The notes beneath the pieces were generated by a model. It searched no databases. It was not told the origin of the DNA and was given only the letters and a program-made list of their open reading frames with translations. From Pseudomonadales bacterium (lineage in GTDB: Bacteria; Pseudomonadota; Gammaproteobacteria; Pseudomonadales; Pseudohongiellaceae): a DNA stretch of 42,026 nucleotides. Numbering within the stretch: position 1 is the stretch's first letter; the number at the start of each line of letters is the position of its first letter. Location: positions 1 through 42,026 of the forward strand of contig JANQSV010000347.1 of NCBI GenBank assembly GCA_028279115.1, read 5' to 3'. Of the stretch, positions 17,021 through 40,165 are shown one piece after another. Position numbers and translations under genes: made by a program.

Positions 17021-19718
<2,698 letters not shown>

Positions 19719-37996: not shown

Positions 37997-38009
37997 GGGC
38001 ATTCCCACC

Positions 38010-38921
38010 ATGTCATTCCGCCCGGAGCGAAGCGGATTGATTCGGGGCATCCATGCCCCTCACCCTTCGGGCGGTGCTGCGCACCGTCCAAAATGGCAAT
38101 CCTGCCATTTTGTCTCCGGAATGCTGGCGCTGTTCGCGCTGGCGTCAACGGCCGCCGAGGCCCAGCAATTGCGATTTGAAGATCTGGAAGATCTTTCGAT
38201 CTACGGCGAGGACATCACCGAATTCACCTGGGTGCGCGGCCAATACACGAATCACGGCGGCGCCGGATTTTCCTATCGCCGCCGCGGCGGCTGGTGGGAC
38301 ACCGACTATCCCGATTCCGACGAGAACTTCCTGCGCGGGGTGCAACGCTACACCAACATCGACACCAATCCGCGTAACCACACCTACCTGCAATTGACCG
38401 ATCCGCGCATCTTCGAACACATCTTCCTCTACATGAACTGGAAACGGGTGCCGATCGGTTCGAGCTACAGCGGCCCGAACTTTACCGCCGAGGAAATCGA
38501 GGCGCTGCGCGAGTTCATGTTGCGGGGCGGCTTCGTCATGGTCGACGATTTCTGGGGCCAGCCGCACCTCGACGACATGTATGTGGAGATCGGCAAGATC
38601 TTCCCTGAACGGGAAATCGTCAAACTCGACACCAGCCACGAGATTTTCCACGTATTCTTCGATATCGACGAAGTGGCCCAGGTGCCCGGACGCATGGTGA
38701 CCTGGGATTTCGGCGGCTACATGAGCCTCGACGATCCGAGCTATCCGCCGGAGGTCTACGCGGTTCTCGACGACGACGGCCGCGTCATGATGCTGGCGAA
38801 CTACAATACGGACCTCGGCGACGGCTGGGAGCACACGTTTTACGCGGGTTATCCGACGCGCTATACGAACGAGGCCTACAAGATCGGTATAAACTTCCTG
38901 ATCTACGCGTTCAGTCACTAG
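38010..38921 (+). CDS. DUF4159-like domain protein; N-terminal ~37 codons overlap a repeat element (alternative start 38121)
   Basis: TNIDTNPRNHTYLQLTDPRIFEHIFLYMNWKRVPIGSSYSGPNFTAEEIEALREFMLRGGFVMVDDFWG. Confidence 0.85.
   Translation: MSFRPERSGLIRGIHAPHPSGGAAHRPKWQSCHFVSGMLALFALASTAAEAQQLRFEDLEDLSIYGEDITEFTWVRGQYTNHGGAGFSYRRRGGWWDTDYPDSDENFLRGVQRYTNIDTNPRNHTYLQLTDPRIFEHIFLYMNWKRVPIGSSYSGPNFTAEEIEALREFMLRGGFVMVDDFWGQPHLDDMYVEIGKIFPEREIVKLDTSHEIFHVFFDIDEVAQVPGRMVTWDFGGYMSLDDPSYPPEVYAVLDDDGRVMMLANYNTDLGDGWEHTFYAGYPTRYTNEAYKIGINFLIYAFSH
38011..38114. repeat. Family C mosaic hairpin repeat inserted at the DUF4159 gene 5' end
   Basis: GGGGCATCCATGCCCC; AAAATGGCA-ATCC-TGCCATTTT (38090-38111); aligns to reverse complement of 19751-19858. 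Confidence 0.85.
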
Positions 38922-39062
38922 AATAACCTCTGATGTAATCAGAGGTTATTCGCGGCACAGGGAAGTGCCGCCGGATTCGATGGCGTAAGCCATTGAATCC
39001 GTGAGCAAAATAAAACCACGCTTTTGTTTTGCGTAGATGAAAATTCCATGGATGGAATTTTC
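38921..39062. ncRNA. Train of five consecutive stem-loops between the DUF4159 gene and moxR (structured RNA or DNA palindrome array)
   Basis: H1 38921-38951, H2 38952-38971, H3 38972-39001, H4 39005-39032, H5 39039-39062; stems 14, 7, 13, 11 and 11 bp with only two G-T wobbles. Confidence 0.75.
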
Positions 39063-39133
39063 GGGGTAAATAGCAAGGCGAAAACTTTATATTCAATAAT
39101 CCGGGGAATCCCCACAACTACGGGAAACAAGGC

Positions 39134-40165
<1,032 letters not shown>

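Follow-up and report, generated by a model that had tools for sequence, protein, structure and literature searches.

A MITE with IS5-type ends carries a conserved train of RNA hairpins with candidate CsrA/RsmA sites

What is a train of five hairpins doing between a DUF4159 protein gene and the moxR gene that follows it? The locus lies near the end of the window, by which we mean the whole 42,026-nucleotide stretch of DNA analysed here (contig JANQSV010000347.1 of a Pseudomonadales bacterium). An initial annotation of this DNA had described five stem-loops upstream of moxR, the first starting at the final base of the DUF4159 stop, and had offered a structured regulatory RNA and a composite mobile repeat among the possible readings. 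All five hairpins are present at those positions, and the start of H1 is confirmed. For H5, a 9-bp stem closed by the hexaloop ATGGAT is a better reading than the one noted earlier, and the true unit is a mobile element bounded by two target copies. The features of the locus, all on the + strand, are as follows.

38121-38921, +: upstream gene for a DUF4159 protein (PF13709)
38918-38921, +: left target copy CTAG, enclosing the DUF4159 gene stop TAG (38919-38921)
38922-39069, +: mobile element (MITE) with five hairpins; covariance model R2 matches 38920-39072, E 3.9e-36
38921-38951, +: H1, a palindrome enclosing the transposon left end
38952-38971, +: H2, GCGGCAC-AGGGAA-GTGCCGC, with hexaloop AGGGAA (ANGGAN) at 38959-38964; candidate site of the CsrA/RsmA type
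38972-39001, +: H3, a 13-bp stem with one G-U pair and a GTAA loop of the GNRA type
39005-39032, +: H4, an 11-bp stem including a G-U pair, with loop CCACGC (YCRCRY class-wide)
39039-39062, +: H5, a 9-bp stem with loop ATGGAT at 39048-39053; second candidate site of the CsrA/RsmA type
39070-39073, +: right target copy, degenerate ATAG, a decayed duplicate of the left CTAG
39134-40165, +: downstream gene for a MoxR-type AAA ATPase (PF07726)

The folding of 38900-39133 is far beyond chance: its energy of -95.6 kcal/mol compares with -56.5 +/- 4.45 kcal/mol for dinucleotide shuffles (z = -8.8), and none of 200 shuffles was as good. In the window copy the H2 hexaloop and the GGA of the H5 loop have a predicted unpaired probability of 1.0. 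The absence of a terminator-type T-tract, reported at the outset, also holds, as no T-run follows any of H1-H5 in the window or H5 in the aligned copies, and the train does not read as an intrinsic terminator. The outer stem of H1 in the window copy departs from the family consensus in matched fashion on both arms, including an indel, and the arms look as if one had been copied onto the other. Immediately after the stop (CTAG) of a TPR gene, and before the DUF4159 gene, the window holds another hairpin-rich stretch (37997-38118; fold z = -4.0). Its length exceeds that of the corresponding gap in the related genome G073 by about 95 bp, and it probably represents a further palindromic insert, unlike this element in type.

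A BLAST search with 38915-39070 revealed that the element is dispersed: its own genome (G000) holds about 39 matches, of which about 16 are near full length at 81-89% identity. The element was found in 10 of 84 genomes of the same genus, and the closed genome G104 contains about 22 full copies. Alignment of 58 near full-length copies with their flanks defined a non-coding element of about 150 bp that has sharp ends and, in many copies, a 4-bp target duplication of the form YTAR/CWAR (CTAG, TTAG, CTAA, CAAG, TAAG). A DNA pattern derived from H4 also matches an uncultured Pseudohongiella chromosome as well as MAGs from Pseudomonadales and other gammaproteobacteria, which, to judge from the names of the isolates, may be sponge symbionts. 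Plasmid and phage collections yielded no match to the element, which rules out a plasmid or phage element from those collections; only two viral contigs contain the H2 motif.

Comparison with close relatives exposes the site before insertion. In G073, whose flanks are 97% identical, the DUF4159-moxR junction runs uninterrupted through the point at which G000 carries an additional 149 bp, and the junction is likewise empty in G021, G104 and G029, the empty-site forms in relatives being CATTAG or CACTAG. G018 reads CTAG-element-CTAG against the empty CTAG of G029. G018 and G032 both possess an element at the same DUF4159 stop codon, G036 has a truncated copy in reverse at the junction, and G083 has a different palindromic insert there. 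That insert (locus L244) lies in the same CTAG target and has ends GGAGCCTGCGCCGCAGGAATTC, a sequence that recurs beside some type-A copies. It is nearly certain that 38922-39069 represents a single copy of a non-coding MITE with dispersed copies, which bears out the composite mobile repeat among the initial readings. The DUF4159-moxR junction is its target site rather than a conserved regulatory locus, and the insertion at moxR is probably incidental.

The ends of the element point to its probable mover. In G032, a decayed IS5-type transposase (L087) starts with the left end of the element and lies beside an element copy. A search with this decayed transposase led to L235 in G083, a genome of the same genus; L235 is an IS5-family element (NF033581, E 1.4e-56) with ends GGAACCTCTGATCAAGTC and GGAAGCTCTGATCAACTG and a perfect CTAG duplication; its transposase frame is interrupted by one stop codon, and the full element has these ends without the hairpin train. 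The IS5-type ends read GGAA(C/G)CTCTGAT, and the left end of our element equals the ends of L087 and L235. Copies from across the class have both terminal ends, and the right end of type A has diverged to AGAGAATAC, which is only partly like the IS5-type ends. Since ends and CTAG duplication are common to L235, the element is an IS5-type MITE, and on the strength of this common end and target it is very likely mobilised in trans by an IS5-type enzyme. Nearly all DDE_Tnp_1 loci had no ends matching the element, and the IS5-like transposases L083-L086 of G000, G029 and G032 were rejected as the mover for want of matching ends.

The internal cargo H2-H3-H4 occurs with three types of ends, GGAAGCTCTGA, CAGGTTGTTGAAAAA and GAGGGTGTCGCAAAA. 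The association of one cargo with three unrelated ends speaks against the hairpins belonging to any single transposon. At one locus (L364), a gap of 13 bp separates two oppositely oriented elements that differ in their terminal repeats but have the same cargo (1334-1487, - strand; 1501-1665, + strand).

None of the 87 type-A copies that could be placed lies inside a gene called by a simple gene finder, and in approximately 41 of 86 copies the neighbouring stop codon falls within the duplicated target. Between same-strand neighbours, type-A copies in sense orientation number 35 and those in antisense orientation 17 (p = 0.018), a modest bias; the corresponding counts in other genera are 11 and 6, with one possible intragenic case. 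Insertion at a stop codon that is restored by the duplication would be nearly harmless and may explain the survival of the element.

The pairing of the hairpins is conserved. Double compensatory changes occur at 21 of 58 pairs among 104 type-A copies, against 6.3 in shuffles (maximum 12), and at 18 of 51 pairs, against 5.6, when the set is thinned to 37 copies of <92% identity. The loops are equally informative: ANGGAN is found at H2 in 98 of 103 type-A copies, A(N)GGA at H5 in about 100 of 104, GNRA at H3 in about 95 of 103, and CCACGC at H4 in 98 of 104. Four of the 12 positions in the H2 and H5 loops vary freely, and they coincide exactly with the positions given as N in the CsrA/RsmA hexaloop, four in all. 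As background, ANGGAN occurs on either strand in 7 of 396 other hexaloop hairpins of the same genomes. A long form of the element (L040, L041, L042, L045, L049, L082 and L087) has at the apex of H3 an extra GC-rich module of about 60-75 nt, GGCAAGCG..CGAAGC..GGAGC..GACTGGAG, and a similar module is fused into H5 of L035.

The fold extends well beyond the genus. A covariance model of type A recovered the same hairpin order, with different stem sequences, in other genera of the order, and a broader model detected the five-hairpin architecture in 73 of 369 genomes drawn evenly from the gammaproteobacteria, or 56 of 272 genera; 62 of the 73 carriers reach E <= 1e-8, and some weak matches (e.g. G086, 24 bits) look like chance. 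Many carriers have at least 8 copies, the most that the scoring counted, and E-values in genomes other than G000 reach 8e-32. In the window itself, the broad model weakly matches 18162-18296 (19.4 bits, E 1.1e-4), which may be chance. Among 32 class-wide copies, compensatory double changes occur at 42 of 49 pairs and 97.1% of cells are paired. The covariation score of 0.732 compares with 0.218 for shuffled and no more than 0.143 for slid alignments. The initial annotation had held that unconserved pairing, or the lack of a transcript together with a lack of dispersed copies, would argue against a functional element; on pairing and on dispersal the outcome was the opposite. G-U cells outnumber A-C cells 45 to 6 in this class-wide alignment, which was fitted to a + strand model, and by a weaker 53 to 33 in unfitted type-A copies, an excess that points to the + strand as RNA.

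Across the class the loops stay fixed while the stem sequences differ. H2 reads CANGGANG (C-A-N-G-G-A-N-G) in 32 of 32 class-wide copies, and H5 reads C-A-(N)-G-G-A followed by T (24), C (4) or A (4) and then G, about 30 of the 32 H5 loops fitting the CsrA/RsmA motif. It is nearly certain that the element is a structured RNA as well as a MITE. The initial reading of a structured regulatory RNA survives in part: a conserved RNA fold with loops resembling protein sites is encoded by the element, and a role specific to moxR is not supported. The H4 loop, AAA-YCRCRY-UUU (39016-39021 in the window), is conserved as strongly as the GGA loops; we recognise no motif in it and, to our knowledge, it has no link to CsrA. 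Neither the window nor its relatives match any Rfam 15 family at gathering thresholds, and known families, CsrB/RsmZ included, were rejected on this basis; the best hit was RsmV (E 0.32), to H2 alone. At L391 9118-9522 of genome G485, the H2-H5 part alone is repeated, in three tandem units whose period is about 124 bp, and this array contains six GGA-type hairpins. Partial second copies are also found just upstream of L301 and L302.

Which factor might read these loops? The RsmE site is an ANGGAN loop, the CsrB repeat is CAGGA(U/A/C)G, and the site selected by SELEX is RUACARGGAUGU, in which AC and GU pair (PMC7652899). The H2 and H5 loops equal all three as described there. All 10 type-A genomes contain CsrA, and the CsrA of G000 is nearly identical to a solved homologue. 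Class-wide, csrA is found in 63 of 66 high-quality carriers and in 280 of 314 genomes overall (P = 0.044), a weakly informative comparison since CsrA is nearly universal; for the same reason co-occurrence was set aside as too weak for a decisive test. The three high-quality carriers without detectable csrA are fragmented assemblies. Several features count against binding by CsrA: the stems of the element (7-13 bp) are longer than those of most SELEX ligands, which have four contiguous pairs or fewer (PMC7652899), the putative sites of H2 and H5 are about 90 nt apart, and the presence of an equally conserved third loop, H4, counts against a reading by CsrA only. From the match of both loops, we consider it likely that H2 and H5 are bound by CsrA/RsmA.

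The explanation that we favor, and hold to be reasonably probable as a whole, is that of an IS5-type MITE with a structured RNA payload offering CsrA/RsmA sites. The MITE would be moved in trans by an IS5-family DDE transposase. Its insertions lie at YTAR/CWAR, very often at the TAG or TAA stop of a gene, where the 4-bp duplication keeps the stop. The payload would then be co-transcribed from the host gene in front as + strand RNA, folding into five hairpins and presenting two candidate sites, the H2 and H5 loops, which a pair of rigid hairpins would hold apart. A CsrA/RsmA dimer could bind or bridge these loops, marking or protecting the inter-gene RNA locally, and dozens of copies together could act as a diffuse, transcription-dependent CsrA sink. 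Whether binding would result in a local mRNA tag, a collective CsrA sponge, or both can be suggested only tentatively. With about 80 nt between H5 and the moxR start in the window, the ribosome site of moxR is unlikely to be blocked directly; an influence on mRNA stability, or titration of CsrA, is more plausible. On a larger scale, the chances are roughly even that this is a class-wide MITE superfamily in which one RNA module is swapped among unrelated ends, spreading CsrA control sites or a distributed sponge. In that reading the module consists of a GNRA-type hairpin and a hairpin with a YCRCRY loop, flanked by two hairpins that would bind CsrA/RsmA.

Other explanations were weighed. The conserved RNA might be bound by a host factor other than CsrA, or might itself work as an RNase III or stability element, with the GGA loops recognised by something else. 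The H4 loop, for which CsrA provides no explanation, fits such a factor, and RNase III or IHF mediates the action of other bacterial MITEs (PMC10969869); however, two separate loops match the CsrA consensus, including the variation that it tolerates, in over 30 copies of diverse origin, and we judge this alternative unlikely. Rather less probable is a plain MITE whose hairpins are by-products of its ends and palindromes, kept in pair by arm correction at the DNA level (template switching), the RNA being functionless. The element clearly transposes, many pair changes in type A lack a single-sided intermediate, and the matched changes of H1 in the window are what arm-to-arm correction would give. 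Arm correction, however, is unable to fix loop letters, and the A/GGA and H4 loop letters are nearly invariant while their neighbours are free. In the 23 most diverged copies, A/GGA positions have changed at 2.8%, paired positions at 9.5% and other unpaired positions at 32%, indicating that the loops persist well beyond the point at which copies diverge. Loop constancy also spans families with different stems and ends, and the G-U wobbles are strand-asymmetric.

It is very unlikely that the role of the hairpins lies in transposition itself, with the transposase recognising them as cruciforms or as folded single-stranded DNA. H1 and H5 do contain or adjoin the terminal repeats, but the internal H2-H3-H4 is the same with three unrelated end types, the full IS5-type element of G083 has its ends without the train, and the excess of G-U over A-C fits an RNA read from one strand. 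Finally, a dedicated regulator of moxR or of the DUF4159-moxR operon, suggested by the position between two co-directional genes and by the elements of G018 and G032 at the same junction, is refuted as a conserved function because orthologous sites are empty, reversed or differently filled and the remaining copies lie at other genes, and it is scarcely credible except as a possible chance effect of the insertion on its surroundings in the present strain.

Little is understood of the ways in which global RNA regulators acquire new targets or shed old ones. If the proposed reading is correct, a transposon that delivers hairpins of the CsrA/RsmA type beside stop codons would be a direct route to rewiring a post-transcriptional network, and would amount to mobile post-transcriptional wiring across gammaproteobacterial genomes, in parallel with the spread of transcription-factor sites by transposons in eukaryotes. 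A further gain is a structured RNA that has no entry in Rfam 15 and is found in 56 of the 272 genera sampled, along with another conserved loop (YCRCRY). Within the open literature, to which this search was confined, we found no paper joining CsrA and bacterial MITEs.

The element resembles several known systems and differs from each. As in other bacterial MITEs (IS5-derived; Coxiella QMITE1/2, Correia, ERIC), it is short, non-coding, dispersed and intergenic, with terminal repeats and target duplications, and such MITEs give rise to stable stem-loop transcripts (PMC5896051, PMC10969869). Unlike them, it has a fixed train of five unrelated hairpins with compensatory stems and class-wide conserved loops, and a cargo common to different terminal repeats. 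With the IS5-family insertion sequences (NF033581) it has in common the ends and the 4-bp CTAG duplication, but it has no transposase gene, only the ends being held in common. REP/BIME sequences consist of one palindrome repeated; they are dispersed, intergenic, often located after genes, and fold in mRNA. The element is similarly dispersed and similarly placed, but has 4-bp target duplications, IS5-type ends and five different hairpins in a fixed order. Finally, like the sponge RNAs CsrB/CsrC and RsmX/Y/Z/V, it presents multiple hairpins with ANGGAN or CAGGA(U/A/C)G loops; whereas those are single-copy sRNA genes, the element is dispersed and transposed, lies without a terminator within host transcripts, and offers only two sites per unit.
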